64,000 nt of DNA, taken from positions 212,501 through 276,500 of the forward strand of contig NZ_CP123639.1 in assembly GCF_029889745.1 (NCBI RefSeq), read 5' to 3'. Within the stretch, counting starts at the first letter, position 1. Each line of letters opens with the position of its first letter. Below the pieces are notes generated by a model, which was not told the origin of the DNA, ran no database searches, and was given only the letters and a program-made list of their open reading frames with translations. The stretch is from Ligilactobacillus faecis. Its GTDB lineage: Bacteria > Bacillota > Bacilli > Lactobacillales > Lactobacillaceae. The translations under genes and the position numbers were made by a program. Of the stretch, positions 16,081 to 59,042 are shown piece by piece.

Positions 16081-16138
16081 AGGAAAGGAAAAGCTATATT
16101 TCTTTTATTTATTCACATGATATAGTAGGCGAGCAGAG
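16081..16138 (+). promoter_or_regulatory. structure-spaced ribosome-binding site of the MucBP-like gene
   Basis: SD AGGAAAGGA is at 16081-16089. The arms CTATAT (16094-16099) and ATATAG (16120-16125) form a stem. The TTG start follows 13 nt after the stem. Linear SD-to-start distance is 49 nt, too long without folding. The first 35 or so bases of this leader nearly match the minus-strand leader at 42183-42225. Confidence 0.6.
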
Positions 16139-17263
16139 TTGGCACATAGACCTAAATCAAAACATAAAAAAACATCACCACGCTCACGTTATGCTAAGCG
16201 CAGTTCTATCGCCCCCTTTGATCCAGTTGGGCTGATCAGACCAGCTGCTCTTCCACGCGAAAAAATCGCGCCAGCTAAAGAAGATATCGCACCTGAGCCT
16301 TTAAAAAAACAAACGACTCCGATCTTAGAAGAAAAAGTCAAACAAACGACAACTTTACGCAAAAAAGCCACTTCACAAGATTCAACTGTGATCCTCATCT
16401 ATCAAGATGAAGATCAAAAGTTTTTAGCTTCCCCCCAGATCATTTCTGGTAAGCGCCATGAACCGATCAAATTCACTTTTAAAGATTTTGATGGTTATAA
16501 TTTTATCCGCGTCGATGGCTTTACCCGCGATTTTGTTTTACCTTACGCCGCGATCACATTTACGTACCGCAAAAAAGATGCTGGTAATATTTGGATCTTT
16601 TGCCAAGATATCGATGACCGCCATTTTTTGCAAAAACCAACTTTTGTCAAAGGTAAAGTCGGTGAATCCTTTACCCTTTCTGCCCCAGCGATCAGAAACT
16701 ATACGCTTTTGCGTGCTCGGGGCTTGACTAGTGGGATCTTCACATATGATCAGCAAGTCGTAACATATTTTTATCGGCGTGACGTTTGGAAAGAGGTCGA
16801 ATATACACCACGTTATCTCAGATTCAAGACTGCCGTCCAAAGTCTAGATGCGCCTGATGGGCATTTGACAGAAGTCGTTTTAGCCCCAGGAACTGTTTGG
16901 CAAACATTTGAAACGATCACGACTGATAACGAGCAACGTTGGTATTGCCTCGGAGGTAATCTTTGGGTCAAATATGACATTGAAGCGATGGAACTTCTTG
17001 ATAAGAAACCAACTACTTTAAAACCACCTGCTTCTGACCTCAAACTACCCAACACGATCACCTTACAGCATAATGCCATGATCGACTTTATTCCTGAAGG
17101 TCAGTTAGTCTTATATGATAAACCGTTTGGGCAAAAGATCGGCACGATCTCAGACGGACAGATCGTCAATTTAACTGGTCGGATCAGGATCGATGGAATG
17201 CTGTGGTTTGAAGTCAATGGTCTTGGTTGGACGATCCGAGAGTATTTAGACCTTGATCCGTGA
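16139..17263 (+). CDS. MucBP-like repeat protein with C-terminal SH3-like region
   Basis: A 374-aa protein. A basic, proline-rich N-terminus (1-80) has no hydrophobic signal peptide. Two MucBP-like beta modules follow at about 80-150 and 155-225 (each with an aromatic, D-G-x-T pattern and ending in V-x-Y-x-Y-R), then a C-terminal SH3-like region (about 300-374). MucBP domains are normally secreted and bind mucin glycans, so the missing signal peptide is odd. The protein might act inside the cell, or leave by another route. No better start was found: TTG at 16139 lies 13 nt after a hairpin-spaced SD. The gene is monocistronic, followed by a bidirectional terminator. Confidence 0.6.
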   Translation: MAHRPKSKHKKTSPRSRYAKRSSIAPFDPVGLIRPAALPREKIAPAKEDIAPEPLKKQTTPILEEKVKQTTTLRKKATSQDSTVILIYQDEDQKFLASPQIISGKRHEPIKFTFKDFDGYNFIRVDGFTRDFVLPYAAITFTYRKKDAGNIWIFCQDIDDRHFLQKPTFVKGKVGESFTLSAPAIRNYTLLRARGLTSGIFTYDQQVVTYFYRRDVWKEVEYTPRYLRFKTAVQSLDAPDGHLTEVVLAPGTVWQTFETITTDNEQRWYCLGGNLWVKYDIEAMELLDKKPTTLKPPASDLKLPNTITLQHNAMIDFIPEGQLVLYDKPFGQKIGTISDGQIVNLTGRIRIDGMLWFEVNGLGWTIREYLDLDP

Positions 17264-17270
17264 TAAAACT

Positions 17271-17312
17271 AAAAATGCTAGCAAACTTTAAAAAGTTGCT
17301 AGCATTTTTTTA
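17271..17312. terminator. bidirectional terminator, MucBP-like gene and prfC
   Basis: AAAAATGCTAGCAA pairs with TTGCTAGCATTTTTT across a short loop, between two convergent genes. Confidence 0.9.
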
Positions 17313-18887
17313 TAGTTTAGCTGTCAGTTTAACGTCTGGATATTTGTCCATGAACCACCGTTCGGCAAATTGATTTTCAAATAAGAAGAGTGGCGCACCA
17401 AAACGATCTTTTACAAGTAAGTTCCGCGAACTTGACATCTTTTCATCTAATTGTTCTGGTTCGATCCAGCGGGCGATCTTATTGCCCATCGGCGTCAGCA
17501 CGACTTCTGAATTATATTCATTGGCCATCCGGAATTGGAAGACTTCAAATTGAAGTTGTCCAACTGCACCTAAGATGTAATCGCCTGTGCTATAGCTTTG
17601 ATAAAGTTGGACGGCTCCTTCTTGAACTAGTTGTTGGACACCTTTATGGAACGACTTTTGTTTCATCACATTTTTAGCGGTCACGCGGGCAAAGAGTTCA
17701 GGCGTAAATTGTGGTAATTTTTCAAAAGCTAACGGTTTTTTCCCTGTATAGATCGTATCTCCGATCTGGAAATTACCTGTATCATATAGCCCGATGATAT
17801 CCCCTGCAACCGCTGTTTCAACTGTTTCACGTGAATCAGCCATAAATTGCGTTGAATTTGATAAGCGGATCTTCTTGCCACTGCGTTCTAAAAAGACATC
17901 CATCCCTCGGTCAAATTCACCAGAACAGATCCGGACAAAAGCGATCCGGTCGCGGTGATTTGGATTCATATTCGCTTGGATCTTAAAGATAAAGCCTGAG
18001 AATTTTGGATCATCAGGTGCGATCTCTTCACCACTTTGCGTCTTATGCGCACTTGGTGCAGGCGCAAATTCTAAATAAGCATCTAAAAAGGTCTTGACCC
18101 CAAAATTAGTCAACGCCGAGCCAAAGAAGACTGGCGTCAATTGTCCATTTGCGATCTTTTCGGCATCAAATTCATTACCAGCATCTTTGACAAGTTCGAC
18201 TTCTTCTAAAACTTGTTGGTAAATGCTATCTTCTTTGAGGGGATCATCACCTTTGATCTCACCTGTTTCATCGAGCTCTAAAAATTGTTGACCTTGATCT
18301 TCGCTACGGTAAAGTTCGATCCGGTTATTGTAAATGTCATAGATCCCTTTAAGACCTTTCCCCATCCCGATCGGCCAGTTCATCGCATAAGCATCGATCC
18401 CTAAAACTTCTTCTAATTCAGCTGTTAATTCAAGTGGTTCACGTCCATCACGGTCGAGCTTATTGATGAAAGTAAAGATCGGGATCCCCCGCATCTTACA
18501 GATCTGGAAGAGTTTCTTTGTCTGTGGCTCGATCCCTTTAGCTGAGTCAATGACCATCACGGCTGAATCGACCGCCATCAATGTTCGATACGTATCTTCG
18601 GAAAAATCTTCGTGCCCCGGAGTATCTAAAATATTGACTCGTTTGCCTGCATAATCAAATTGCATCACTGAACTTGTAACTGAGATCCCACGCTTTTTTT
18701 CGATCTCCATCCAGTCAGATTTAGCAAAATTTCCACTTTTTTTAGCTTTAACAGTTCCTGCTTGTCGGACAACGCCCCCAAACAAGAGCAATTGTTCTGT
18801 GATCGTTGTCTTCCCGGCATCAGGGTGAGAAATGATCGCAAACGTGCGACGTTTAGCGACTGCTTCCTTTAATTCTTCTTTATTCAT
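17310..18887 (-). CDS. prfC: peptide chain release factor 3 (RF3)
   Basis: A 525-aa translational GTPase that recycles RF1/RF2 from the ribosome. G1 is SHPDAGKTT near residue 17, G2/G3 include DTPGHEDFS, and G4 is NKLDRD. The C-terminal domain (QFEVFQFRM) matches RF3. The start is ATG 18885-18887 with GTGAGG upstream. The longer frame to 18917 is unsupported. Transcription converges on the MucBP-like gene. Confidence 0.95.
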
Positions 18888-18935
18888 ATTGACCTCACAG
18901 TATATTTTAAATATCAAATATTATCTTACTTGAAA

Positions 18936-18976
18936 AAAAGGCCGGTTTCAACACTAAGTGCTAGACCGACCTCAAG
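18936..18976 (-). terminator. terminator of the CNNM/CBS gene
   Basis: An interrupted stem (AGG-CGGT...ACCG-CCT on the minus strand) is followed by seven T, directly after the stop codon. Confidence 0.6.
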
Positions 18977-18977
18977 C

Positions 18978-20180
18978 TTATTCTTCTGTTGCAGTAAAAC
19001 ACGCAAGAACTTGCGTGATCCGAGCATCATCTACGATCTCTTTGGTTTTTAGCGTCAATGTCTCATCGACTTTAACTGTTAAAACTTCACCGTCATCAGG
19101 GATCTTTCCTGTTTTAGCGATGATATAGCCTGCGATCGTATCGACATCATTTATCGAAAGGTCTGTGCCAAATTCATCATTGAATTCATTTAGCGTCATC
19201 TTTCCTTGGACAAGATACGTTTTATGATCGACTTTTTTGACGAGTTTGTCTGGTTCATCTGACTCATCATCGATCTCACCGACGATCTCTTCTAAAAGAT
19301 CTTCTAAAGTCGTCAAACCCACGACACCACCGTACTCATCTAACAAGATCGCCATCTGATTTTGCGTTTTTTTCATTTGATATAACAATTCATCGATCGG
19401 CATCGTTTCAGGGACAAAGAATGCCGGGCGCATGACTTGACGGATCGTTAACCGCTCAAAGCCATAGCGACGAGCATATTTCAAAACATTTTTAAGATGC
19501 ACGAGCCCGACGATATTATCCTTATCTTCATGATATACGGGGATCCGCGAATAATCCATTTCCAAAATACTATCGATGTTACGATCGTTATCATTTGTGA
19601 TATCGATCATAAATGCATCTGTTCGTGGGACCATGACCTCGCGGGCCGCTTTATCGTGTAAAGATAAGACCCCACTGATCATTTCATACTTATCCGGATC
19701 AAGTGCGCCTTCGCTCCGCTGTTCTTCAAATGTTGTCACTAATGTATCCAATAATTCATCTTCTGGCGCACCAGCCTTAGCTGCTTGAGCATTGAGCTGG
19801 TCTTCGAGCAGCAAAAGCGGTCTAAAGATAAACTGTGCACTTGTCTTGAGCCAGCGTGTACGTTGCAAATAGCACCTATGATTTTTCTCAGTCAGCATCT
19901 GGGCCAATAAAGCCTGCCACAAATAAAGTCCTAGACAACTACCAACTAAGCTCAAACATATTTTTAACGGATCTTTAAAAACAAAAGATCCATTTAAACC
20001 GCTGTAAAACACTAAAGCCCAGGTAAATTGAGCAAAAGTCAATGCGCGCTTAGCACTTAACTCACTAAACTCGCTTTTTTCAAAATTCAAAGCAAATTTA
20101 CTTACTGTATTTAAACTAAAAAAGATCAGAGCAATAAAGCTCAAGACGCCCCATAGAAAATTCACATCGGGATCTTCCAT
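18978..20180 (-). CDS. CNNM/CBS-domain transporter-associated protein (HlyC/CorC family)
   Basis: A 400-aa membrane protein. Its N-terminal third is hydrophobic (CNNM/DUF21 domain with about three or four spans). Two CBS domains follow at about 180-300, beginning VMVPRTDAFMIDI and including AILLDEYGGVVGLTTLEDLLEEIVG. The C-terminal CorC_HlyC domain (from about 320) closes it. The family includes bacterial magnesium and cobalt efflux proteins. The older name hemolysin is misleading. The ATG has AGGGGG upstream. Twelve bases separate it from the TagH-like gene, so the two probably form an operon. Confidence 0.85.
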   Translation of the reverse strand: MEDPDVNFLWGVLSFIALIFFSLNTVSKFALNFEKSEFSELSAKRALTFAQFTWALVFYSGLNGSFVFKDPLKICLSLVGSCLGLYLWQALLAQMLTEKNHRCYLQRTRWLKTSAQFIFRPLLLLEDQLNAQAAKAGAPEDELLDTLVTTFEEQRSEGALDPDKYEMISGVLSLHDKAAREVMVPRTDAFMIDITNDNDRNIDSILEMDYSRIPVYHEDKDNIVGLVHLKNVLKYARRYGFERLTIRQVMRPAFFVPETMPIDELLYQMKKTQNQMAILLDEYGGVVGLTTLEDLLEEIVGEIDDESDEPDKLVKKVDHKTYLVQGKMTLNEFNDEFGTDLSINDVDTIAGYIIAKTGKIPDDGEVLTVKVDETLTLKTKEIVDDARITQVLACFTATEE

Positions 20181-20191
20181 TAAAATTCCCC

Positions 20192-21616: not shown

Positions 21617-21798
21617 TTTCTTTTCACCTATAAAACCTAAAAAACACTGATTTAAAAAATATTGAACTAACTCTCATAGTACAAAATTGCTTTGAGAGCG
21701 TCAACTGGAAACCTCATTCAACTTGATAAAATAAAGCGACTTTAATATAATTGTTAACGTTGTTTTACAACAAAATCAAAGAAGTCGAGGTCTTTAGT

Positions 21799-22206: not shown

Positions 22207-22230
22207 GCCTTGACTCAAGCACTTTTTAGT
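22197..22230. terminator. bidirectional terminator, GtrA gene and gpsA
   Basis: AAAAAGTGCTTGAG and CTCAAGCACTTTTT form a perfect stem between convergent genes. It overlaps the end of the GtrA gene. Confidence 0.92.
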
Positions 22231-33571: not shown

Positions 33572-33621
33572 AATATTTTTTGCCTAAAATGTGCCGTTTG
33601 GGAAAATTAGGCTTCCTTTCT
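33572..33621 (-). promoter_or_regulatory. structure-spaced ribosome-binding site of map
   Basis: On the minus strand: SD AGAAAGGA (33614-33621), stem arm GCCTAA (33607-33612), 19-nt loop, arm TTAGGC (33582-33587), then 10 nt to ATG. The linear SD-to-start distance is 42 nt. Folding would reduce the effective gap to about 11 nt. Confidence 0.65.
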
Positions 33622-33745
33622 AAAAACTTGATTTAACTGGATAAAACAGCGACTGGCGACACATTTACTTTCCCACAGTTAAAAATTACCTAACTCCTAT
33701 ATTATACAACAAGCTCACAATTTTTTCGTATTCATCTCACAAAGA

Positions 33746-34265: not shown

Positions 34266-34281
34266 ATCAAGTTAATCTAAC

Positions 34282-34319
34282 GAAAGGAATCGCCAGGACC
34301 TTCTGGCCAAACAAAGATC
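34282..34319 (+). promoter_or_regulatory. structure-spaced ribosome-binding site of yfhO
   Basis: SD GAAAGGA (34282-34288), stem arm GCCAG (34292-34296), 6-nt loop, arm CTGGC (34303-34307), then 12 nt to GTG at 34320. The linear distance is 31 nt. Confidence 0.6.
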
Positions 34320-38794: not shown

Positions 38795-39937
38795 TTATTT
38801 TAGATCACTAGGACGAGCAGTGCGTTTGCCAAAATAATACTCGATCGCTGCGATGATCCGTTGACTAGCTTTTCCATCTCCATAAGGATTTTTAGCTGTC
38901 GCCATCGCTTGGTAAAGCTCTTTATCTTCGAGTAAAGCTAACATCTCTTTTTTTACGATAGCTTGTTTAGTACCAACTAATTTCAAAGTCCCAGCTTGAA
39001 GCCCTTCTGGTCGTTCTGTCGTATCTCTTAAAACTAAGACTGGCTTGCCTAAAGATGGTGCTTCTTCTTGAACACCACCTGAATCACTCATAATAAAATA
39101 GCTTCGGGCTGCTAAATTATGAAAATCAACGACATCGAGCGGATCGATCAAATGAACTCGTTTGATCCCATCTAAAACTTCATGTGCGATTTTTTGGACA
39201 GTCGGGCTCAAATGAACTGGATAAACGATCTCAACGTCAGAATGCGTCAAAACAACATCACGTAAAGCTAAAAAAACTTCGCGCATTGGTGCGCCTTGAT
39301 TTTCTCGGCGATGCATCGTCACTAAAATAAGCTTTTGCTCAGGCGCGATCTGCTCCAAGATCGCATGTTGATAATCGTCAGTTACCGTCTGTTTTAAAGC
39401 ATCGATCGCTGTATTTCCTGTCACATAGATCTTCTCTTGTGGATGGTTTTCTGCCAAAAGATTTTTTTTACTTTGCTCTGTTGGTGCAAAGTAAAGATCG
39501 GTCAAGACATCGGTCATCTGACGATTCATCTCTTCTGGATAAGGGGAATACTTATTCCAAGTTCGCAAACCAGCTTCAACGTGACCGATCGCGATCTGAT
39601 TATAAAAAGCAGCTAAACTAGCAGCAAACGTTGTAGTCGTATCGCCATGGACCAAGATGATATCTGGTCTTTCTTTTTTGATGACTTGATCTAATTTATC
39701 CAAAACATTTGCGGTGATCTCAGTGATCGACTGATCCTTTTTCATGATATCTAGATCATAGTCAGGTGTGATCTTAAAGATCGCTAAAGCTTGATCTAAC
39801 ATCTCACGGTGTTGGGCCGTTACAGTCACGATCGTTTCAAATTCAGCCTGTCTTTTTTGTAGTTCTAAAATAAGTGGTGCCATCTTGATCGCTTCTGGTC
39901 GCGTTCCAAAAACAGTCATTACTTTGATTTTTTGCAT
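38795..39937 (-). CDS. wecB: UDP-N-acetylglucosamine 2-epimerase
   Basis: A 380-aa GT-B-fold enzyme interconverting UDP-GlcNAc and UDP-ManNAc, a precursor for wall teichoic acid linkage units and polysaccharides. Motifs include TVFGTRPEAIKMAPL at the start, VHGDTTTTFAASLAAFY near 95, HVEAGLRT near 120, and SDSGGVQEEAPSLGKPVLVLR near 290. I start at ATG 39935-39937 (MQKIKVMTVFG). The open frame upstream to 40057 is an artefact crossing a structured leader. The SD is AGAAAGGA, separated from ATG by a small hairpin. It converges on yfhO across the insertion sequence. The symbol mnaA is also used. Confidence 0.95.
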   Translation of the reverse strand: MQKIKVMTVFGTRPEAIKMAPLILELQKRQAEFETIVTVTAQHREMLDQALAIFKITPDYDLDIMKKDQSITEITANVLDKLDQVIKKERPDIILVHGDTTTTFAASLAAFYNQIAIGHVEAGLRTWNKYSPYPEEMNRQMTDVLTDLYFAPTEQSKKNLLAENHPQEKIYVTGNTAIDALKQTVTDDYQHAILEQIAPEQKLILVTMHRRENQGAPMREVFLALRDVVLTHSDVEIVYPVHLSPTVQKIAHEVLDGIKRVHLIDPLDVVDFHNLAARSYFIMSDSGGVQEEAPSLGKPVLVLRDTTERPEGLQAGTLKLVGTKQAIVKKEMLALLEDKELYQAMATAKNPYGDGKASQRIIAAIEYYFGKRTARPSDLK

Positions 39938-39979
39938 GAGAATCTCAATATCGCCTACAGACGATACTTTTTCCTTTCT
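39938..39979 (-). promoter_or_regulatory. structure-spaced ribosome-binding site of wecB
   Basis: On the minus strand: SD AGAAAGGA (39972-39979), arm TATCG (39962-39966), 8-nt loop, arm CGATA (39949-39953), then 11 nt to ATG. The linear distance is 34 nt. Confidence 0.6.
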
Positions 39980-40085
39980 AAAGATCAATTTAGGTCTATT
40001 ATAACAAACTTCCGATCTTATGCTATGATAGTACAAGAAAAGTTTACCTCGATCCAACTTCGAGCTAGTGGTAAAGCAAACCTTT

Positions 40086-40140
40086 AGAAGGGGGGGCTAT
40101 GTGTCTGGATCACATTTAGCTCACACATAGCATCAAAAAT
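40086..40140 (+). promoter_or_regulatory. structure-spaced ribosome-binding site of the aminopeptidase gene
   Basis: SD AGAAGGGGG (40086-40094) directly abuts arm GCTATGTGT (40096-40104). The complementary arm ACACATAGC (40123-40131) is followed by 9 nt and ATG at 40141. The 9-bp perfect stem is the strongest of the set. The linear distance is 46 nt. Confidence 0.7.
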
Positions 40141-41379
40141 ATGACTCTACCAAATTTCGAAGAAAAATTAGCCCGCTATGCGCATTTGATCGTTAAAATG
40201 GGTGTCAATATCCAACCTGGACAAACTGCCATTTTATACATCTCAGTGACCCAACAGAAATTAGCCCATCTGATCGTTGCTGAAGCTTACGCTGCTGGTG
40301 CTAGCGAAGTGCTCGTCAAATGGAACGATGAGTATTTGACACGCCAATTTTTACAGCATGCACCTCTTAAACGTTTAGAAACAACACCGAAGTATCAAAT
40401 TGCCGAAGCTGATTATATCGTTGCTAAAAAAGCAGCCCGGATCTCCGTTATCTCTGAAGATCCAGATGCCTTAAATGGACTTTTACCTGAAAGGATCGCT
40501 ACTTACCAAAGTAGCCGTGGCAAGGCTTTACAACAAGTTCGCCAAGCTACGCAAAATAACGACTTGACTTGGACAGTCGTTGCTGCAGCCGACGAAGCAT
40601 GGGCCAAAAAAGTCTTTCCTGAGCTTGCTCCTCAAAAAGCAGTTGACCGTCTCTGGGAAGAGATCTTTAAAACATGTCGGATCGACACAAAAGATCCTCT
40701 GAGCGCTTGGCAAGAACATGAGCAAGCCCTCCAAAAAAGAGCAGCTTGGCTCAATCAAGAGCAATTTGTCGCTTTACACTACACTTCGCCTAAAACAGAT
40801 CTTATAGTTGGCCTTCCTAAAGATCATCATTGGGAAGCTGCTGGAAGTGTTAGCCAAGAAAAAATCAAATTTTTAGCTAACATGCCTACTGAAGAAGTTT
40901 TTACCGCAGCTGATAGCCGCCATATCGATGGTTATGTCACTTCGACTAAACCATTGAGTTATGCAGGCCATATTTTGGAAGATATTCGCTTTACTTTTAA
41001 AGATGGCCAAGTCGTTGATGTCCAAGCAAAAGACCATGTCGAGATCTTAGAGCACCTTTTAGAAACTGATGCCGGCGCGCGTTCTTTGGGCGAAGTTGCG
41101 CTTGTCCCCGATCCTTCACCGATCTCACGCTCAAAGATCATATTTTACAATACACTCTTTGACGAAAATGCAAGCAATCACTTTGCTTTAGGCTCAGCCT
41201 ATCCATTTAGTATCCAAGGTGGAACAGATATGACACCAGACGAACTACGCAAACATGGGCTAAACATCAGCCAGACGCACGTTGACTTTATGGTCGGCTC
41301 AAACACAATGAACATCGATGGGATCAAAGCTGACGGCACTAAGATCCCTGTCTTTCGGCAAGGTGATTGGGCAAATTGA
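40141..41379 (+). CDS. pepS: M29-family aminopeptidase (PepS/AmpS type)
   Basis: A 412-aa cytosolic metallopeptidase that removes N-terminal residues from peptides. Family M29 ligand regions are visible: Glu in NMPTEEVFTAAD (near 255), Glu in GARSLGEVALV (near 320), His in NASNHFALG (near 350) and His-x-Asp in SQTHVDFMVG (near 380). The length is typical. The ATG at 40141 begins the conserved N-terminus (LPNFEEKLARYAHLIVKMGVN). It has no close SD and depends on the structured leader. A bidirectional terminator follows. Confidence 0.92.
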   Translation: MTLPNFEEKLARYAHLIVKMGVNIQPGQTAILYISVTQQKLAHLIVAEAYAAGASEVLVKWNDEYLTRQFLQHAPLKRLETTPKYQIAEADYIVAKKAARISVISEDPDALNGLLPERIATYQSSRGKALQQVRQATQNNDLTWTVVAAADEAWAKKVFPELAPQKAVDRLWEEIFKTCRIDTKDPLSAWQEHEQALQKRAAWLNQEQFVALHYTSPKTDLIVGLPKDHHWEAAGSVSQEKIKFLANMPTEEVFTAADSRHIDGYVTSTKPLSYAGHILEDIRFTFKDGQVVDVQAKDHVEILEHLLETDAGARSLGEVALVPDPSPISRSKIIFYNTLFDENASNHFALGSAYPFSIQGGTDMTPDELRKHGLNISQTHVDFMVGSNTMNIDGIKADGTKIPVFRQGDWAN

Positions 41380-41658: not shown

Positions 41659-41735
41659 CGCTCTTTTTGCTATATAAAATGTGAATCAAGCTACTTTGAA
41701 AACTCTGTGAGGAAGAAATATAGCGTTCCTTTCTT
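41659..41735 (-). promoter_or_regulatory. structure-spaced ribosome-binding site of the cytochrome-b5-like gene
   Basis: On the minus strand: SD AAGAAAGGA (41727-41735), arm GCTATAT (41718-41724), 42-nt loop, arm ATATAGC (41669-41675), then 10 nt to ATG. The stem is 7 bp and perfect. The linear distance is 68 nt. Confidence 0.7.
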
Positions 41736-41929
41736 AGTTTTAAACATATTCTAAGCTCAGTTGCTCAAACGCTCAACTTTTGAGCTAGCACTCCTACTTT
41801 AGACGCTTTGCTTCACATTTTATCTTTCTCACAAGTGCTAGAGTATGAGTCAGTACGGTCAACTAATATAATGTTGATCCCCTCTTTACCCTACCACAGT
41901 TTAAAACAACCACCAAACCTTTTGATCTT

Positions 41930-42112: not shown

Positions 42113-42201
42113 CTTGATCCCGGCTACATAAAATATGGGATTATGTAGAACAAAATGTCTAAGCCCCACATAATCAGAAAGAAATATAGCTTTTCCTTTC
42201 C
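42113..42201 (-). promoter_or_regulatory. structure-spaced ribosome-binding site of the small membrane protein gene
   Basis: On the minus strand: SD AGGAAAGGA (42193-42201), outer arms GCTATAT (42183-42189) and ATGTAGC (42123-42129), inner arms GATTATGT (42168-42175) and ACATAATC (42139-42146), then 10 nt to ATG. The outer stem holds one G-U pair. The linear distance is 80 nt, the longest of the set. Confidence 0.7.
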
Positions 42202-42300
42202 TAGTTTTATTTACTACCGTCAACGCTAAGGTTCCCATATTCTAATAAGCGGGAAATGTGACATTGACTAGCTCTGTTAGTTTAGGGTGTGACCACCCCG

Positions 42301-42570
42301 TCATATTTTCTGATTTAATAAAGCTAAAAGATCAGCTACTGCATTTTTATCTCGATCCGTGATCGCACCACACTTAGCATAACATTGCAGCTTTTTAGAA
42401 GTACATGTACCATTTGTATTTTCTTGACATCTAGATCTTCTATCACGTTATAACTTGACTCTCGGCTATTTTTCTTAATAACCCTTTATTCACAACACGT
42501 TTTCTAGCTGATTTTCTTTGGTAATCCTTGATACGTTTATAGAGTCGCTTCAAATTTAGCTTCATAACCT
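42301..42570 (-). pseudogene. decayed TnpB (IS605 OrfB) C-terminal remnant
   Basis: The minus strand holds broken frames with TnpB character: LKRLYKRIKDYQRKSARKR, then a frame change and VIEDLDVKKIQ, then CYAKCGAITDRDKNAVADLL before TGA at 42301-42303. The last part resembles the end of the TnpB zinc finger and its final Asp region. Several frameshifts are needed to join the parts. No ends or tnpA are visible. It is unrelated in detail to the intact copy at 27865. Confidence 0.6.
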
Positions 42571-44924: not shown

Positions 44925-46340
<1,416 letters not shown>

Positions 46341-46484
46341 CTATATTTTCACCATGATCCACATCCGCTTCTCATTGGTAGTTAGTTTAATATTCTAATT
46401 TTACATTAATATAGTATCTAGATTCAAGTTTTGTGTCCTAGCAAATTTTATTATTATTGTTTTAAGACTATATTTGAACCTAAG

Positions 46485-52892: not shown

Positions 52893-52899
52893 GTTTATT

Positions 52900-52975
52900 T
52901 CCTCCATTTAATGTATACATGTTTGACAAACAATAAGTTTAACGGGGCTTACTGTGGGGCAAACAATACCAAATA
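52900..52975 (-). promoter_or_regulatory. candidate L13 leader RNA
   Basis: In Firmicutes the rplM-rpsI transcript carries an autoregulatory L13 leader. This short leader contains GCCCC twice and complementary AAACTTATTGTTT-type segments. I cannot confirm the fold by eye. Confidence 0.45.
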
Positions 52976-52977
52976 CT

Positions 52978-53006
52978 ATATTACGATTTTTTTTAGGTAT
53001 AGTCAA
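52978..53006 (-). promoter_or_regulatory. promoter of rplM-rpsI
   Basis: The minus strand has TTGACT (53001-53006), a 17-nt spacer and TAATAT (52978-52983). Confidence 0.75.
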
Positions 53007-53044
53007 TTATAACTTTTAAGAAAACTTCAAATCAAGCCTAATTT

Positions 53045-53806: not shown

Positions 53807-53819
53807 CTAACTAAATTCC

Positions 53820-54614
53820 TCAATTTCTCAAAAATAATAAACCTAATGTCAAAGCCAAAAAGACGCCTAAAGCAATGGTATCGCGTAAATGCCATGTTTG
53901 CGCACGATATTTGGTCCGCCCTTCGCCTCCACGATAGCCTCGTGCTTCCATCGCCGTCGCAAGCTCTTCAGCCCGTGAGAGCGCACTGACAAATAACGGG
54001 ATCAAAAGTGGGATCACAGCTTTGATCCGATCTTTCAAACTCCCGGCACTAAAATCGACTCCGCGCGAACGTTGGGCATTCATGATCTTAGTCGTTTCAT
54101 CCATCAAAGTCGGCACAAAACGTAAAGCGATCGAAAGCATCAACGAGATCTCATAGACAGGAACTTTGAGCTTTTTAAGCGGCTTTAATAACGATTCAGT
54201 CGCATCGGCGATCGCAAGCGGAGGAGTCGTCAAAGTCAATAACGTTGAAATGAAAATGATCAACACAAAACGACAAAAAACAAAGACGCCATTGACTAGA
54301 CCAAACTGCGTCAACGAAAATGGTCCCCATTGCCAATAAACAGGTCCACCGCGGGTAAAAAAGACTTGCAGTAAAACGGTAAATAAGATCAACCAGATCA
54401 ACGGCAAAAGTCCTTTGATAAAATAGCGTAAATCGATCTTTGAAAGCAAAACAAAGATCAATGTCGCTCCAGTCAATAAAAGATAGCTTTGCCAATTATT
54501 ACATAAAAAGATGATCAAGACAAAGTAAAAACATAAGACTAATTTTCCCCGCGGATCAAGCCGATGGATCAACGAATCGCCTTGGAGATAACGGCCTAAT
54601 AAAAGTTTATCCAT
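53820..54614 (-). CDS. ecfT: energy-coupling factor transporter transmembrane protein EcfT
   Basis: A 264-aa membrane subunit. It couples the two ATPases to vitamin-binding S components. Five or six spans are visible, and the two Ala-Arg-Gly-type coupling motifs appear as AQRSRGVDF and AMEARGYRG. Its ATG overlaps the ecfA2 end by 8 bases. SD AGGTGAG. Confidence 0.95.
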   Translation of the reverse strand: MDKLLLGRYLQGDSLIHRLDPRGKLVLCFYFVLIIFLCNNWQSYLLLTGATLIFVLLSKIDLRYFIKGLLPLIWLILFTVLLQVFFTRGGPVYWQWGPFSLTQFGLVNGVFVFCRFVLIIFISTLLTLTTPPLAIADATESLLKPLKKLKVPVYEISLMLSIALRFVPTLMDETTKIMNAQRSRGVDFSAGSLKDRIKAVIPLLIPLFVSALSRAEELATAMEARGYRGGEGRTKYRAQTWHLRDTIALGVFLALTLGLLFLRN

Positions 54615-55476
54615 CTAACTCACCTGCCTTTAACTTTTGCGCTAACGTTTGCGCAAGTTCTTTTTCGGTCAAAGGAAGTTCTGGAAAAACAAAGCCTTTT
54701 TTTTGCAATTTAGTCGCAAAAGCTGTCGTTTGCGGTAAACTCAAATGATGTTCTAAAAGCCAGTTTGGATCTTTGAACAGTTCTTTTGGCGTTGTATCGG
54801 CGATCAAATGCCCTTCTTCTAGCACTAAAACATGCTCGGCATAATTAGCGACATCATTCATCTGATGCGTCACTAAAATGATCGTTAACCCTTCTTCTTG
54901 GTGGAGACGTTTGAACATCTCCATCATTTCGACGCGTCCACTTGGATCAAGTCCTGCTGTCGGTTCGTCTAAAACTAAGACTTTGGGCGACATCGCTAAG
55001 ATCCCAGCGATTGCAACGCGACGCATCTGTCCGCCTGAAAGTTCAAATGGTGAGCGCTCTAAGAGACTCTCATCTAGATGAACGAGTTTTGCTTTTTGGC
55101 GTGCGATCTCGTTAGCTTCTTCTTCGGTTTTTCCAAAGTTTTTCGGGGCAAATGCAATATCTTTTAAAACCGTCTCTTCAAAAAGTTGTGCTTCTGGAAA
55201 CTGAAACACGATCCCGACTTCTCTACGCAATTCCCCGAGCTCTTTATTTTTTGTTTCGGCAGTGATCTTTTTGCCATTGATCGTTAAAGAGCCTGCCGTT
55301 GGTCGTAAAAGGCCGTTTAAGTGTTGTAAAAGCGTAGATTTACCACTTCCAGTGTGTCCGACTAAAGCGGTAAAGCTTTGATCAGCGAGCGTAAAACTGA
55401 TATCAGCCAGCGCCTTTTTTTCAAGAGGCGTTCCTATTTGGTAAGTATAGCCTAATTTTTCGAGATGTATCGCCAT
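54607..55476 (-). CDS. ecfA2: energy-coupling factor ATPase EcfA2
   Basis: A 289-aa ATPase with Walker A GHTGSGKS (near 40), signature LSGGQMRRVAIAG and Walker B LVLDEPTAGLDPSG. The C-terminal region is longer than in general ABC ATPases, as in ECF pairs. I start at ATG 55474-55476, 7 nt after GGTGG. The two codons before it (TTG GTT) are an alternative. It overlaps the ecfA1 end by about 25 bases. Confidence 0.94.
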   Translation of the reverse strand: MAIHLEKLGYTYQIGTPLEKKALADISFTLADQSFTALVGHTGSGKSTLLQHLNGLLRPTAGSLTINGKKITAETKNKELGELRREVGIVFQFPEAQLFEETVLKDIAFAPKNFGKTEEEANEIARQKAKLVHLDESLLERSPFELSGGQMRRVAIAGILAMSPKVLVLDEPTAGLDPSGRVEMMEMFKRLHQEEGLTIILVTHQMNDVANYAEHVLVLEEGHLIADTTPKELFKDPNWLLEHHLSLPQTTAFATKLQKKGFVFPELPLTEKELAQTLAQKLKAGELDG

Positions 55477-56291
55477 AACCAATCCACCATTTCCTTTTCT
55501 GTTAAATATTCTTTTGGAACTGTGATACCTAACTGTGAAAGCTCGTGTTTTAAACGTTCTTGATAAGGGACGTCTAATCCTAGCGCCAGCAATTCATTTC
55601 CACGTTCAAACACATTTTTAGGGGTGTCATCTTGGATGATCTGACCATTATCTAAAACGATGATCCGGTCAGCTAAGGCAGCTTCGTCGATATCATGTGT
55701 GATCGAGATAACGGTAAAATGCTCTTCTTGATTCAATTTTTTCATCAAAGAAACGATCTCTCTACGTCCTTCAGGATCAAGCATACTCGTTGACTCATCA
55801 AAGATCACGATCTTAGGGCGTAACGCTAAGACACCTGCGATCGCAACGCGTTGCTTTTGCCCGCCTGAAAGCCGGACTGGCTCATATTTGGCAAAGCGTT
55901 CCATTTTGACAGCTACTAACGCCTCTTTGACGCGCTTTTGCATCTCTTCGCGCAAAACGCCACGATTTTCAAGGCCAAACGCGACATCCCCTTCAACATC
56001 AGCTCCGACAAATTGGTTATCTGGATTTTGAAAGACCATTCCGATCTGTTCACGAATATCCCAAATATTTTCTTCATTTAAAATTTTTCCATCAACTTTG
56101 ATCGTTCCAGACTGTGGTGTCAAAAGACCGTCGATCAATTTAGCTAAAGTGCTCTTGCCACTGCCATTATGTCCGATCAAAGCGACCCATTGGCCAGCTT
56201 CGATCGTCAGATCAACGTCATGTAAGACCTTCTTTGCCTGCTCTTCACCGTATGCAAAGTTGAGTTTTTCGATCTCAATAATTGCGCTCAT
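55452..56291 (-). CDS. ecfA1: energy-coupling factor ATPase EcfA1
   Basis: A 279-aa ATPase with Walker A GHNGSGKS (near 42), Q-loop FQNPDNQFVG, signature LSGGQKQRVAIAG and Walker B IVIFDESTSMLDPEGR. Ser replaces the usual Pro-Thr after the DE, a known feature of EcfA1. It is the first gene of ecfA1-ecfA2-ecfT-truA, which powers vitamin and metal uptake with S components encoded elsewhere. Confidence 0.94.
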   Translation of the reverse strand: MSAIIEIEKLNFAYGEEQAKKVLHDVDLTIEAGQWVALIGHNGSGKSTLAKLIDGLLTPQSGTIKVDGKILNEENIWDIREQIGMVFQNPDNQFVGADVEGDVAFGLENRGVLREEMQKRVKEALVAVKMERFAKYEPVRLSGGQKQRVAIAGVLALRPKIVIFDESTSMLDPEGRREIVSLMKKLNQEEHFTVISITHDIDEAALADRIIVLDNGQIIQDDTPKNVFERGNELLALGLDVPYQERLKHELSQLGITVPKEYLTEKEMVDWLWRYISKN

Positions 56292-56418
56292 TCTTTTTTC
56301 CTATCTGTTTGACGTACTTTTTGATTACTATTATACCATGCACAGAAAATTTCTCTCTTGCTTGTTTTGTTAAATAATTTGACCTATAATTATCACCGTT
56401 AGAAAAGAGGTCATTTTT

Positions 56419-56952
56419 ATGAAAAAGATCGGGATCATCATCGGAAGCACGCGTCCTGGGCGTAAAAGTCCCCTGATCGCCGAGTGGTTTTACGCTAATC
56501 TTTCCCATCCAGAATTAAATTTTGAGGTCATCGACTTAAAAGATCATCCCTTACCTTTTTTAGATGAGCCCCAAATGCCCCAGACTGGGATCTATACAAA
56601 ACAGGCGACTAAAGCTTGGAGCCAAACGATCGCTGCACTAGATGGCTTTATCTTCATCGTGCCTCAATATAATTGGGGCTATCCTGCCGTCTTGAAAAAT
56701 GCCTTAGACTATCTTTACCAAGAATGGCAAGGCAAACCAGCTTGTTTAGTCAGTTTTGGCGGACACGGTGGAACGCAAGTCCAACTTGCTTTGCGCCTTG
56801 TGTTCCAAGGCCTAAAAATGCCCGTCACAGCTGTAGCTCCTCAGATCAGTTTAGCCCCAAGTGCAAGTGAAGCTGAAGCACTCGAAACTTTAGAAGCTTA
56901 CCGCCCACTGTTACCCGCACTAGCGATTGAGTTTTTGCGTTTGACTAAATAA
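56419..56952 (+). CDS. NADPH-dependent FMN reductase family protein
   Basis: A 177-aa flavodoxin-fold reductase. The FMN phosphate loop GSTRPGRKSPLIAEWF begins at residue 9, and the PQYNWGYPAVLKNALDYL segment near 85 is typical of azoreductase and chromate/quinone reductase relatives. The substrate is unknown. The SD AGAGG lies 8 nt before the ATG. It is monocistronic, with a bidirectional terminator. Confidence 0.9.
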   Translation: MKKIGIIIGSTRPGRKSPLIAEWFYANLSHPELNFEVIDLKDHPLPFLDEPQMPQTGIYTKQATKAWSQTIAALDGFIFIVPQYNWGYPAVLKNALDYLYQEWQGKPACLVSFGGHGGTQVQLALRLVFQGLKMPVTAVAPQISLAPSASEAEALETLEAYRPLLPALAIEFLRLTK

Positions 56953-57002
56953 AAAATAAGATCGCAACTTCTCTTTAGAGGTCGTGCGATCTTATTTTTA
57001 TT
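56950..57002. terminator. bidirectional terminator after the FMN reductase gene
   Basis: AAAAATAAGATCGCA and TGCGATCTTATTTTT form a long stem between convergent genes. Confidence 0.9.
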
Positions 57003-57006
57003 TTTA

Positions 57007-57648
57007 TCACACTTTAGCTAAAGCCTCTTTGATCGGTGTTTGGCCACTTCGCATAGAAATGACTTTCTTTTTCGTATTATCAAATTCAAGCAATAACGCT
57101 AAAGTTTTCGCTACATCAGAGATCGGATTAGTAGCGACTTTTCCTGTGCCTAATGTGATTTTTTCGGTTCCAGGCTCTTCTGTCAAAGCAGTTGGTTGTA
57201 AGATCGTATAGTCTAGGTCGGTCTGGTTGACTAAATAGTTATCAGCAAAAAATTTAGCCACGTTATAATTCATGATCTGTTCTAAACCTGGTCGATGCCA
57301 GAATTTTGGTTCAAGTGAGTGCACTGAACTCAACATGATATAGCGTTTGATCTGATTTTTTTGAGCTGCTTGCATCGTTTTGACAGCCCCAAAAGCATCA
57401 GTTTGTAAAAGATCTTTGCCACGTGAACCAGCAGTAAAGTAGACCACATCTTGGTGTCCGATCAATTCTGCTAATTCAGCGACGTCTGCATGTAGATCTA
57501 GTTTAACTGCTGTCACATGGGGATCATCTTTTAAGCTGACATTTTCAGGATGGCGCGCTGCCGCCGTCACTTCATGGCCATTTTCAACTAATGCTTTGAT
57601 CAATTCAGTCGCAACACGTCCTGAAGCACCAACAACAAAAATCTTCAT
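57007..57648 (-). CDS. NAD(P)-binding atypical SDR (YwnB/YhfK-like)
   Basis: A 213-aa Rossmann-fold protein. The nucleotide loop GASGRVATELIKAL lies at residues 7-20, and the AVKLDLHADV and YFTAGSRGKD segments are typical of NmrA/atypical SDR proteins. The Tyr-x3-Lys of classical SDRs is not clear, so it may be a redox sensor rather than an enzyme. AGAAAGGA lies 11 nt before the ATG, a normal spacing. It follows the flavoprotein reductase by 17 nt, so they probably form an operon. Confidence 0.85.
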   Translation of the reverse strand: MKIFVVGASGRVATELIKALVENGHEVTAAARHPENVSLKDDPHVTAVKLDLHADVAELAELIGHQDVVYFTAGSRGKDLLQTDAFGAVKTMQAAQKNQIKRYIMLSSVHSLEPKFWHRPGLEQIMNYNVAKFFADNYLVNQTDLDYTILQPTALTEEPGTEKITLGTGKVATNPISDVAKTLALLLEFDNTKKKVISMRSGQTPIKEALAKV

Positions 57649-57665
57649 TTAGATCACGGTCCTTT

Positions 57666-58997
57666 CTATTTTAAAACATCGTTCAAAGCTTCACTCATCG
57701 TCGGATGCGTGTAGATCTGGTCACGTAAAAGCGTATATGGAAGCTCAGCTTTCATCGCTAAAGCTAGCAAGTTGATCAACTCATGGGATTCAGCTGCATA
57801 GATCGTTGCCCCTAAGATCGCATCGCTATCTTTAGCCACTAAGATCTTAAAGATCCCTTGTGTCTCTTGTAAAACACGCGCTTTAGGAATGGCTGCGACA
57901 GGGAGCTTGAACAAACGATACTCTATCCCTTTGGCTTTAGCTTCTTTTTCATTCAACCCAACTTTTGAGAGTGGTGGTTCAATAAAGACACTGTAGGGCA
58001 CGACTACACGGTCACTTACCCGCCGTTTTCCCGTGCCAAAGAGCTCATCTTTGATGATCCGAAAATCATCCAGCGAGATATACGTGAACTGAAGCCCTCC
58101 TTTAACATCCCCTAAAGCCCAGACATTTGGAACTGTCGTATGCAACTGGTCATCGACAACGATCGCTCCGCGTTCATCGACTTTGATAGCTGTATTTTCT
58201 AGACCAAGCTTTGCTGTGCGCGGTTTTCTTCCAGTCGCAGCCAAGATCTTATCTGCTTTGAGGGTCACTTCGTTTCCATCTTTTTCATAGCTGATTTCGA
58301 CGTGATCTAAGACATCTTTGACTTCTTTGACGTTGACCCCTAATTCGAAGTTGACCCCTGCTTTAGTCATATCTTTAAAGACAAGTTCTGAAACATCGCT
58401 ATCTTCACGAGGGATAAAGTCAGTATGGAGATCTAACACGGTGACTTTTGAACCGTAACGAGCAAACATTCCTGCAAATTCAAGCCCAATATAGCCAGCT
58501 CCTAAGATCACAAGTTCTTTTGGCAACTTTGTCTCGTCCATCGCTTTGGTAGAATCAAGGACATTTTTACTTTCTTTTAAACCTTTGATCGGTAAAACGA
58601 CTGGTTCAGCCCCAGTGTTGATAAAGATCCGTTCACCTTCAAGTTGAACTTTTTGACCATCTGCTTTAGTCACTTCAACAACATGATCTGAAACAAAGCG
58701 CGCTTCCCCGTCTAAAACAGTGACTGAGTCTTCATCTGCCAACATATGGTAGTTTTTATCACGCAAAAAGGCTGTCATCTCATTTTTGCCAGCTACGGCA
58801 TGACTGAATTCAGTCCCCTTGGTCGACTCGATGATCAACCGCTTTGAAGGCAAGCAGGCGATGTTGATACATGTGCCCCCATACATCTGATCGGAACGTT
58901 CAACAACGACGACTTCTTCACCTTTTGCTGCTAAAGTCTTTGCCAATGTTTTGCCACCTTTACCAAAACCAATGATCAGATTCTTTACTTTTTCCAT
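57666..58997 (-). CDS. flavoprotein disulfide reductase, RclA / hypothiocyanite-reductase type
   Basis: A 443-aa FAD and NAD(P)H enzyme of the class I disulfide reductase family. FAD-binding GFGKGGKTLA is at the N-terminus. The redox cysteines are in GGTCINIACLPSK (C-x4-C, near 43-48). The NAD(P)H loop GAGYIGLEFAG lies near 165, the second FAD motif ALGDVKGG near 295, and HPTMSEALND near the C-terminus carries the catalytic His. The GFGKxGKTLA start and the ACLPSK variant resemble RclA and streptococcal hypothiocyanous-acid reductase rather than lipoamide dehydrogenase. It likely protects against reactive chlorine or hypothiocyanite. The start depends on a hairpin-spaced SD. Confidence 0.87.
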   Translation of the reverse strand: MEKVKNLIIGFGKGGKTLAKTLAAKGEEVVVVERSDQMYGGTCINIACLPSKRLIIESTKGTEFSHAVAGKNEMTAFLRDKNYHMLADEDSVTVLDGEARFVSDHVVEVTKADGQKVQLEGERIFINTGAEPVVLPIKGLKESKNVLDSTKAMDETKLPKELVILGAGYIGLEFAGMFARYGSKVTVLDLHTDFIPREDSDVSELVFKDMTKAGVNFELGVNVKEVKDVLDHVEISYEKDGNEVTLKADKILAATGRKPRTAKLGLENTAIKVDERGAIVVDDQLHTTVPNVWALGDVKGGLQFTYISLDDFRIIKDELFGTGKRRVSDRVVVPYSVFIEPPLSKVGLNEKEAKAKGIEYRLFKLPVAAIPKARVLQETQGIFKILVAKDSDAILGATIYAAESHELINLLALAMKAELPYTLLRDQIYTHPTMSEALNDVLK

Positions 58998-59042
58998 TGT
59001 TTTTCACCGCTATATGTCTAAACATATAGTCTTTCCTTTCTT
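58998..59042 (-). promoter_or_regulatory. structure-spaced ribosome-binding site of the flavoprotein reductase gene
   Basis: On the minus strand: SD AAGAAAGGA (59034-59042), arm CTATATGT (59022-59029), 4-nt loop, arm ACATATAG (59010-59017), then 12 nt to ATG. The stem is 8 bp and perfect. The linear distance is 36 nt. Confidence 0.7.

Follow-up and report, generated by a model that had tools for sequence, protein, structure and literature searches.

Hairpins carry ribosomes past an inserted stretch in phage T4 gene 60 bypassing and in the mitochondrial byps. Those systems act during elongation, whereas the hairpin-bridged leaders described here would act at initiation. In phage T4 genes 25 and 38, according to the excerpted report (PMC3014915), a stem cuts the distance between the Shine-Dalgarno sequence (SD) and the start codon from 27 to 11 nucleotides (nt) and from 22 to 5 nt, respectively, and initiation falls on stem-destabilizing mutation. 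Our leaders resemble these hairpin-bridged ('split') ribosome binding sites in having a distant SD, an intervening stem and near-normal unpaired spacing, but the T4 cases are single phage genes, whereas here there are dozens of bacterial genes, with longer loops, a pseudoknot to an upstream hairpin, and carriage by a transposon.

That transposon is like the IS607 family, as far as the excerpted sources describe it, in its serine recombinase TnpA with an N-terminal DNA-binding domain (the MerR label is from Pfam), its TnpB and, possibly, its GG-type targets. The excerpts of PMC6188088 and PMC11061315 give the TAM of published IS607 TnpBs as AGGAG in 18 of 22 strains and GAGGG in 4 of 22, both of which are SD-like; the left flank in our copies is GGGAG. 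The same excerpts draw no link between the right end and translation of a downstream gene, and the word 'Shine' occurs 0 times in PMC11061315. IStrons are transposons of the IS605/IS607 kind whose insertion is made harmless at the RNA level (PMC4227781, in the portion cited), but they self-splice by a group I intron, whereas the insert here would stay and the ribosome would be guided past it. We conclude that the leaders are probably IS607-type transposon ends inserted into SDs, which supply a hairpin-bridged replacement, and that many of them are now host leaders.

Nine leaders in the window

The window is the whole 64,000 nt stretch analysed. A sequence-only reading had proposed nine leaders with a stem between SD and start, and all nine were found where it had placed them (the coordinates that it gave being SD positions). 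We denote by S2 the bridging stem between SD and start and by P0 a hairpin upstream of the SD; a and b are the loop strands of P0, c and d those of S2, and a:c and b:d the helices that they form. The stems measure 5-9 bp, as claimed; they begin 2-5 nt past the SD core (..AAGG or AAGGG; 1-5 nt past the SD had been claimed), and the 3' foot lies 9-12 nt before the start, within the proposed 9-13 nt. Other figures differ: loops span 4-54 nt, which leaves the lower bound of the claimed 4-69 nt standing and lowers the upper; SD end to start is 32-82 nt rather than 31-80 nt; and the SD said to be mostly AGAAAGGA has that form in five of nine leaders and another in four (two AGGAAAGGA, one ACGAAAGGA and one AGAAGGGG). 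Each S2 outscores its own dinucleotide shuffles (p 0.0025-0.047; 400 shuffles each). Pairing of the SD with the 3' end of 16S rRNA, a stretch that is masked in the source genome, is an assumption that we take from relatives.

The P0 arrangement is clear in three leaders (the MucBP-like gene, map and pepS) and probable in two (the cytochrome-b5-like gene and gdhA). The MucBP-like leader (16081..16126, plus strand) has its SD at 16081-16088, S2 at 16093-16099/16120-16126 (p 0.032) and a TTG start at 16139, with P0 at 15893-15900/15928-15935, a at 15904-15912, b at 15917-15923, c at 16100-16108 and d at 16112-16118; its arrangement score of 24.5 was equalled in 0 of 60 shuffles, and a model of the transposon right end, R1, matches it at 16082-16129 (E 2.8e-4). 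The map leader (33582..33622, minus strand) has its SD at 33615-33622, S2 at 33607-33612/33582-33587 (p 0.015), an ATG start at 33571-33569, P0 at 33676-33679/33652-33655, a at 33668-33674, b at 33657-33665, c at 33600-33606 and d at 33588-33596 (score 23.0, equalled in 0 of 60 shuffles), and its a and c strands are non-consensus (GGGAAAG/TTTTCCC). The pepS-type leader is a full element (40043..40131, plus strand): SD 40085-40092, S2 40096-40104/40123-40131 (p 0.0025), ATG start 40141, P0 40043-40048/40070-40075, a 40051-40056, b 40062-40067, c 40106-40111 and d 40117-40122 (score 22.0, equalled in 0 of 60 shuffles), with wholly non-consensus helices (a GATCCA with c TGGATC, b GAGCTA with d TAGCTC).

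The cytochrome-b5-like leader (41669..41735, minus strand) has its SD at 41728-41735, S2 at 41718-41724/41669-41675 (p 0.0125), an ATG start at 41658-41656 and a probable P0 at 41831-41834/41808-41811, with a at 41826-41829, b at 41812-41821, c at 41714-41717 and d at 41676-41685; b:d is 10 bp, the arrangement score of 19.2 was equalled in 2 of 60 shuffles, and R1 matches with E 1.9e-5. For gdhA (46271..46341, minus strand) the SD is at 46334-46341, S2 at 46322-46329/46271-46278 (p 0.027), the ATG start at 46259-46257, and the probable P0 at 46376-46379/46351-46354, with a at 46368-46374, b at 46358-46365, c at 46313-46319 and d at 46282-46289 (score 18.5, equalled in 1 of 60 shuffles). The small membrane protein leader (42123..42202, minus strand; SD 42195-42202, S2 42184-42190/42123-42129, ATG start 42112-42110) has an S2 p of 0.047 and an R1 match with E 7.3e-7; its P0 candidate at 42296-42323 does not stand out from chance (score 17.8, equalled in 5 of 60 shuffles). 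Upstream of its SD, at 42220..42280 on the minus strand, lies a probable remnant of the transposon RF03014 (Transposase-1) RNA, with 25.8 bits, under the gathering score of 42.8 (E 0.0022 in 501 bases).

Three leaders have S2 only: the yfhO-type leader (34280..34307, plus strand; SD 34280-34287, S2 34292-34296/34303-34307, GTG start 34320; p 0.015), the wecB leader (39947..39980, minus strand; SD 39973-39980, S2 39960-39968/39947-39955, ATG start 39937-39935; p 0.0025), whose product, counted from that ATG, matches TIGR00236 from residue 4, and the leader of a flavoprotein (RclA/MerA-like) reductase (59010..59042, minus strand; SD 59035-59042, S2 59022-59029/59010-59017; p 0.0025), in which the ATG start at 58997-58995 is followed by GGTGA. 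At E<=0.01, R1 matches four of the nine leaders, including that of gdhA, which belongs to the model's own set; map and pepS have only the architecture in common with the transposon right end, and the three S2-only leaders only SD and S2. We infer that the latter descend from the same element.

Genome-wide enrichment

Searching for an SD word followed by paired arms gave real counts above those from shuffled leaders in three genomes. The scan of the source genome (G000) covered 844 kb, in which 709 ORFs of 80 amino acids or more were called and 52 genes had a distant SD word only. A stem score of at least 6 was reached by 38 of these 52 (shuffled mean 13.2, maximum 21), at least 7 by 28 (5.4, maximum 13) and at least 8 by 20 (1.8, maximum 5). 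At a score of at least 7 the counts were 19/52 in G298 (800 kb scanned; shuffled 5.0, maximum 9) and 12/24 in G297 (400 kb; 2.5, maximum 5), and the same-genus outgroup G304 (400 kb) was not enriched (1/9 versus 0.4). Control words at that threshold gave 0/6 for complements of SD words and 1/11 for reverse complements; A/G-swapped words gave 14/101 versus 6.4 (maximum 10), a mild excess and so not a clean negative. The pattern AGAAAGGAANNNCTAT has 24 matches in G000, its reversal 0, and it occurs in 7 of 26 genomes of the genus (G000 24, G298 12, G311 7, G297 6 and three with 1). Over 88 leaders, with the start codon picked as the best stem partner, the SD-start spacing has a median of 46 nt and the unpaired nucleotides summed from SD to start a mean of 13.4. 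Minimum free energy folding, a method without pseudoknots, retains S2 in 53 of the 88 and pairs at least four SD bases in 36.

Orthologues and paired changes

Hairpins co-occur in orthologues of G298 and G297 (8 with a hairpin in both genomes, 15 and 8 in a single one, 260 in neither; Fisher p 3.7e-6) and of G000 and G298 (5, 9, 11 and 167; p 0.0027), and not significantly in those of G000 and G297 (p 0.11). Covariation is seen in relatives: across 15 orthologous pairs (11 genes), 45 stem positions are altered on both sides and 5 on one, in a set partly ascertained through having stems and with some shifted registers. The trmB stem is AACTAGTT/AACTAGTT in G000 and CTATGTA/TACATAG at the same place in G298 and G297; that of recN, CTGTT/AACAG, is common to G298 and G297, and G000 alone differs. 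By eye, the map orthologue in G298 has a different stem (GCTGTAT/ATACGGC), and in G297 and G311 the orthologues show a GAAGGG-type SD close to the start. The gdhA orthologues L031 and L036 carry elements with different helices (scores 20.5 and 19.8), and the flavoprotein reductase orthologues in G311, G297 and G298 read AGAAAGTGGG.. without a hairpin. A paired glmU stem seen by eye in G000 was dropped, the sequence being only TGCC/GGCA with mismatches above. Plain SDs occur in 31/57 orthologues without a hairpin versus 758/1731 of all such genes, no clear excess; among distal-SD genes with a plain-SD partner, 17/44 also reach p<=0.05, so this orthologue control is not a true negative. One gene appears in three states: a tnpB-bearing copy in G296, SD with a short stem in G298, and plain GGAGG in G297.

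Probable origin in an IS607-type transposon

An IS607-type transposon with tnpA, tnpB and RF03014 RNA has SD plus S2 as its right end and P0 as its left end. Its TnpB carries PF07282, PF01385 and PF12323, and the TnpA fragment of L056 carries PF00239 and PF13411 (the tnpA frame is broken in L056 and L061). In L056, a whole copy, RF03014 lies between tnpB and the SD with 68 bits, above the gathering score of 42.8, but the matched stretch contains no SD, S2 or P0. A search at Rfam gathering scores found no group I intron in the window, and none was found in L056 5800-6400. Helices between left and right ends were found in two whole copies, and the SD-like left flank GGGAG in 3/3 whole copies, which do not stand in front of a gene.

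Within the 844 kb, a start codon (ORF of at least 50 amino acids) follows 2-20 nt on in 22 of 26 right-end matches, versus 609 of 4000 random places. Most of the right ends examined in relatives and other genera end 5-13 nt before a start codon (19 loci hand-picked from 34, mainly ones that carry tnpB or lie beyond the hairpin-rich clade; the start codons at L366-L373 open frames that merely reach the ends of short stretches). The 34 comprise 30 from the genome scan and 4 from viral contig scans (3 stretches plus 1); each genome offered 317 to 6180 candidates, of which one transposon-end scan scored 150, and another scored only 24, so the counts are lower bounds. Right ends read ..GCAG in 17 of 18 loci with the end found, and ..GCAA in L352. 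The element probably inserted into native SDs, which would make SDs its target and account for the uniform 3' spacing.

Putative pairing with the left end

Scores of at least 20 for P0 with a:c and b:d were reached in 30 of 69 real cases and in 0, 0, 0, 2, 0 and 1 with shuffled upstream sequences. A b:d helix of at least 8 bp occurs in 13/52 (shuffled 1.1, maximum 5; partners swapped 4/52). Positions interrupting the helices are G.U in 19 cases and A.C in 6 (p 0.007, helices having been picked with G.U allowed, which somewhat favours it), and this excess argues that the pairing acts in RNA. Among 51 elements there are 42 distinct 5' strands for a:c, 44 for b:d and 49 for P0, with pairing kept, and the SD is constant among elements whose a-d strands differ. 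Swapped partners pair at a fraction of 0.49-0.68, the own fraction being 1.00 by construction because elements were picked by pairing (element L046 is from G298 and L047 from G311). As a riboswitch test, we looked for a conserved ligand-binding sequence in the 51 elements and found none, a, b, c, d and P0 all varying. Simple recombinase inverted repeats are disfavoured, if not strictly, as the source of a:c and b:d: wholly non-consensus pairs exist, and a mirror repeat would place c after d, whereas c before d, the only order scanned, is well above shuffles.

Proposed mechanism and alternatives

In the mechanism that we propose, the leaders would be whole, miniature or worn-down transposon ends. 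An IS607-type transposon would insert in an SD (left flank GGGAG), pushing the target gene's SD away, and its right end would bring its own SD (AGAAAGGA) with S2 directly behind. With the 3' foot of S2 at the right terminus (..ATATAGCAG), the SD and the remaining 9-13 nt would meet at the base of the helix, and the ribosome would encounter near-normal spacing and presumably initiate through the hairpin-bridged SD. In many long-loop copies a and b would pair with c and d, so that the left end locks the stem, with S2, a:c and b:d joined in a three-way junction; S2 and the P0 pseudoknot would then form together. Many genes would retain only SD and a short stem, maintained by compensatory changes. 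That the helix joins SD and start, as the sequence-only reading held, is the best interpretation at the sequence level, because the stem sits between the two, beats shuffles and keeps paired changes; the P0 pseudoknot and the transposon origin had been missed.

We give a limited chance to a translational switch, compatible with bridging, which would alternate between a state with loop CTTTCT paired to AGAAAG of the SD and a state with that loop strand withdrawn. CTTTC occurs in 20 of 52 long loops (shuffled 2.9) and could pair with the SD in consensus members, but in non-consensus members (map, pepS, L085 and L087) the c strand tracks strand a of P0 and not the SD, for which reason CTTTC as an SD-masking pseudoknot was set back; short-loop leaders have no room for a masking strand, and the hairpin-leader genes that NCBIfam could name have no common function.

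It is also quite unlikely that SD and stem are a transposon end only (recombinase site and guide-RNA scaffold), with translation through residual AGG/GGTG or weak initiation. The right end does adjoin tnpB and RF03014, there are consensus repeats GAAAG/CTTTC, and G is commoner at positions 2-5 past the stem than at 6-10. Following the stem, GGTG occurs in 10/88 leaders (shuffled 2.3, maximum 8) and AGG in 25/88 (16.3, maximum 25), and GG is not enriched (40/88 versus 32.9, maximum 43); GGTG is possibly a remnant of the native SD and could suffice alone as a residual SD in some genes. Against this explanation, short-loop leaders keep SD and S2 with no other visible part of the element, paired stems differ between orthologues, the SD is unchanged where a-d vary, and G.U over A.C indicates RNA. 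The idea of a split SD, in which the 3' remainder extends anti-SD pairing, is only partly supported by these counts.

Leaderless initiation from promoters within the hairpin, on transcripts beginning 3' of it, is very improbable: -10-like words lie within 16/88 hairpins, but also in the approximately 60 nt upstream of the SD in 32/88 leaders (a raw count, with no shuffled control), stems of widely differing sequence cannot all be promoters, and covariation is left unexplained. Translation by re-initiation after a short upstream ORF driven by the SD is scarcely credible: an ATG stands at SD spacing in a few leaders (pepS and the flavoprotein gene) but start codons 4-11 nt past the SD (24/88 versus 30.8 +- 4.3 in shuffles) are not enriched.

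Returning to hairpin-bridged initiation at transposon ends, we somewhat favour the fuller reading that lactobacillus IS607-type transposons seek SDs, carry a replacement, hairpin-bridged ribosome binding site at the right end, locked through a pseudoknot by the left, insert almost harmlessly even in the SD of an essential gene, and in one clade have left dozens of host genes with domesticated ends as their sole ribosome binding site. If so, a transposon would neutralize its insertion not by splicing but at the step where translation initiates, a strategy absent from the excerpts of the papers cited; two T4 curiosities would become a genome-scale bacterial initiation mode with many natural variants; the SD-start separation allowed on the 30S subunit would become directly testable; and gene finders may misjudge the ribosome binding sites of these genes. 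The SD-like TAMs of IS607 TnpBs would be explained, and because the published ones (AGGAG and GAGGG) are SD-like, SD targeting with RNA-level repair is perhaps general in the family. The recombinase depends on the right end as well, and so, probably, does the TnpB guide RNA; in whole copies S2 may be kept for those roles.

Putative stem-bridged leaders in the window

In the leader family analyzed here a Shine-Dalgarno (SD)-like word goes with a stem and, in many members, a pseudoknot, whose pairings covary; the set is fixed to the right end of an IS607-type transposon, and that end sits at the SD position of genes. All nine window leaders picked out by the sequence-only reading (MucBP-like, map, yfhO, wecB, pepS-type, cytochrome-b5-like, small membrane protein, gdhA and flavoprotein reductase) were confirmed as first described (9/9), with a distant SD, then a stem (S2), then the start codon. 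The stems have 5-9 bp and start 2-5 nt past the SD, their 3' feet lie 9-12 nt from the start codon (n = 9 for both), and their loops measure 4-54 nt; each stem scores above its own shuffles (p 0.0025-0.047). An additional upstream hairpin, P0, with loop strands (a, b) complementary to strands of the S2 loop (c, d), is clear in the MucBP, map and pepS leaders (matched by 0/60 shuffles each) and probable in the gdhA leader (1/60 shuffles as good) and the cytochrome-b5-like leader (2/60). In the small-membrane-protein leader P0 is indistinguishable from chance (5/60 shuffles equal); this leader retains a sub-threshold match to the RF03014 RNA. A single intergenic region (window 39935-40143) separates wecB from the pepS-type gene, which are transcribed divergently, and it holds a putative bridged leader for each, with S2 only for wecB and the full arrangement for pepS-type. 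A further candidate, glmU, was removed on re-check of the sequence.

Genome-wide enrichment of candidate bridging stems

A gene-by-gene scan covering 844 kb of the window's own genome, G000 (the window and a further 39 stretches, each 20 kb long and taken at fixed steps), bore out that such stems exceed chance. In 52 genes an SD word occurs at a distant place only, and 28 of these genes have a stem score of at least 7, compared with 5.4 (maximum 13) when the SD-to-start sequence was permuted with dinucleotides kept. The same scan found stems in 19/52 genes of the same-genus genome G298 (5.0 shuffled), in 12/24 genes of G297 (2.5 shuffled) and in 1/9 genes of the same-genus outgroup G304 (0.4 shuffled). 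Control words with A and G swapped gave a mild excess (14/101 versus 6.4 shuffled), and the stem score alone is therefore not perfectly clean. At a score of at least 6 the G000 sample holds 38 genes, with about 13 expected by chance, and extrapolation from the scaled sample suggests a total on the order of 70-110 genes of this kind in G000.

By NCBIfam best matches, some below cutoff, the hairpin genes include ruvX, zapA, mprF, purR, yfmF, rodZ, trmB, proB, PBP2B-like, glyQ, recN, wecB and others, among which no common function was found; an NCBIfam match was absent for 7/30 proteins scanned.

A predicted pseudoknot with the upstream hairpin

Long loops (at least 14 nt) occur in 52/88 leaders, and they are enriched in CTTTC (20 versus 2.9 shuffled), by eye close to the 5' arm, and in CACAT (16 versus 1.4), by eye ahead of the 3' arm. 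The end of such a loop is complementary to an upstream stretch over at least 7 bp in 21/52 of these leaders (4.5 shuffled, maximum 10) and over at least 8 bp in 13 of 52 (1.1 shuffled, maximum 5), compared with 7 and 4, respectively, after exchange of loop ends between elements; among short loops the upstream complementarity was found in only 1/35. A combined scan for P0, a:c and b:d gave scores of at least 20 in 30/69 leaders (0, 0, 0, 2, 0 and 1 in six shuffled sets) and of at least 18 in 36 (0-4 shuffled). The order of the elements is P0 5'-a-x-b-P0 3'-(9 to 149 nt)-SD-S2 5'-c-(3 to 56 nt)-d-S2 3'-start, the 3 to 56 nt often being a hairpin. Within the small gaps allowed by the scan, c lies 0-2 nt after S2 5' in 48/51 elements and d lies 0-1 nt ahead of S2 3' in 43/51, an arrangement in which S2, a:c and b:d would join at a three-way junction. 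The consensus strands are GAAAG/CTTTC (a/c) and AAATGTG/CACATTT (b/d); non-consensus strands pair in pepS (GATCCA/TGGATC, GAGCTA/TAGCTC) and at locus L085 (GGCAAA/TTTGCC, AGATATAGC/GCTATATCT). Interrupted helix positions hold more G.U than A.C (19 versus 6, p 0.007), a bias that RNA from this strand should show.

Orthologues and turnover

Hairpin presence is correlated between species (G298/G297: hairpin in both for 8 genes, in one only for 15 and 8, in neither for 260, p 3.7e-6; G000/G298: in both for 5, in one only for 9 and 11, in neither for 167, p 0.0027; G000/G297: in both for 2, in one only for 11 and 3, in neither for 89, p 0.11), yet many orthologues of hairpin genes have a plain SD, and gain and loss are therefore fast. 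The covariation in relatives proposed as a check on the stems was found: in 15 pairs from 11 genes, both members with stems, 45 stem positions differ in both arms and 5 in a single arm, a count inflated by register shifts, repeated genes and ascertainment. Clear examples are trmB (AACTAGTT/AACTAGTT in G000 versus CTATGTA/TACATAG in G298 and G297), GCTATATT/GATATAGC versus GCTGCATT/GGTGCAGC, and ACTATAT/ATATAGT versus ACTGCAG/CTGCAGT. Of 29 orthologues of hairpin genes in which the only SD is distant, 17 contain a stem that beats its own shuffles at p<=0.05. The same holds for 17/44 distant-SD genes whose partner has a plain SD, a figure that fits fast turnover and is no negative control. The gene MEKQTFAVIGLGRFG has an identical stem in G297 (L040) and G311 (L030), the loops between its arms measuring 3 and 36 nt.

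Probable origin from an IS607-type transposon

The top matches to the right end in G000 and its relatives directly follow the 3' end of tnpB. Locus L056 carries a whole element, reading 5' to 3' a left end with a hairpin (AATATCTAC..GTAGATATT, preceding tnpA), tnpA (encoding a resolvase and a MerR domain in a broken frame), tnpB (PF07282, PF01385), the RF03014 RNA (68 bits, between tnpB and SD), the SD and S2, which terminates ..ATATAGCAG. In L056 the loop of the left-end hairpin is complementary to that of the right end, in the manner of the small elements (score 29.0; 25.2 in locus L061). The P0 b strand, AAAATGTGA, overlaps an SD-like GTGAGG ahead of tnpA (L056 4247-4360, L061 8249-8360), and pairing of the two ends could therefore also silence tnpA translation.

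An open frame starts 5-13 nt past the right end in 12/19 loci; the exceptions are L332, L333, L339 (ATG present, frame of 20 codons), L345, L353 (no right end found), L354 and L361. In other genera a start codon lies 7-12 nt past the right end in 8/8 copies examined, with frames followed no further than the roughly 330 bases covered, and a tnpB end lies upstream, by eye, in 6/8 (all except L368 and L371). L332 and L333 are viral contigs of one metagenome, both with a tnpB end and the same right end; the transposon may thus ride on phages, or these may be host pieces.

We built a covariance model of the right end (R1: SD, stem and loop ends) from 28 sequences. In the 844 kb of G000, 22/26 of its matches are followed by a start within 2-20 nt, versus 609/4000 random places, and three of the four misses are whole copies of the transposon. 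At E<=0.001 there are at least 45 matches in G000, 20 in G297, 14 in G298, 13 in G311, 8 in G296, 4 in G314, 3 in G309, 2 in G315, 1 in G305 and 1 in G310, all lower bounds because only part of the candidates was scored; among the candidates scored, 16 other genomes of the genus had none. In the family, at least 11/201 genomes have matches, 7 of these outside the genus. The pattern AGAAAGGAANNNCTAT has 24 matches in G000 (0 for its reversed form) and is concentrated, among 26 genomes of the genus, in G000, G298, G311 and G297; in the order it matches in 102/295 genomes, with at most 5 matches per genome other than G000 among those listed.

Model and relation to known systems

Insertion into an SD would part it from its start codon; the right-end SD would pair with 16S rRNA, whose 3' end we take to be CCUCCUUUCU, and S2 would restore the missing proximity of SD and start, perhaps helped by a GG left over from the native SD. 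The left-end hairpin would pay for the long loop, and copies would shrink over time to an SD with a short stem. One gene is found in three states: with a tnpB-bearing copy in G296 (L348; tnpB interrupted, partly N), with an SD and short stem in G298, and with GGAGG in G297. The 16S rRNA gene of the window (1-1442, minus strand) is cut by the window edge, and the genome sequence is masked at the 3' end of the gene.

Targeting of SDs is proposed from the flank word, from where the right ends lie and from published target-adjacent motifs (TAMs). The left border is GGGAG in three whole copies and, by eye, in L368, a small element of another genus, where it stands ahead of AAGGTAATTG; the target is the weak point of the model, because the three whole copies with this visible flank have no gene behind them. 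IS607 elements insert at GG with no duplication (PMC6188088), and their TnpB TAMs, AGGAG in 18/22 strains and GAGGG in 4/22 (PMC11061315), are SD-like, the word 'Shine' having 0 occurrences in the latter paper. T4 genes 25 and 38 are the precedent for bridging (PMC3014915), and IStrons make insertion harmless via splicing (PMC4227781). Our literature search gave no usable report linking IS607 to SDs or on split SDs, and no description of this combination of known kinds, a bridged SD and an IS607 end.

Elsewhere in the window, an L13 ribosomal protein leader (RF00555) lies at 52916-52970 on the minus strand (51.6 bits). The second contig, 3 kb long (L331), resembles a small plasmid: parts of it match Lactobacillus plasmids, and one of these matches spans an Fst-type toxin gene.
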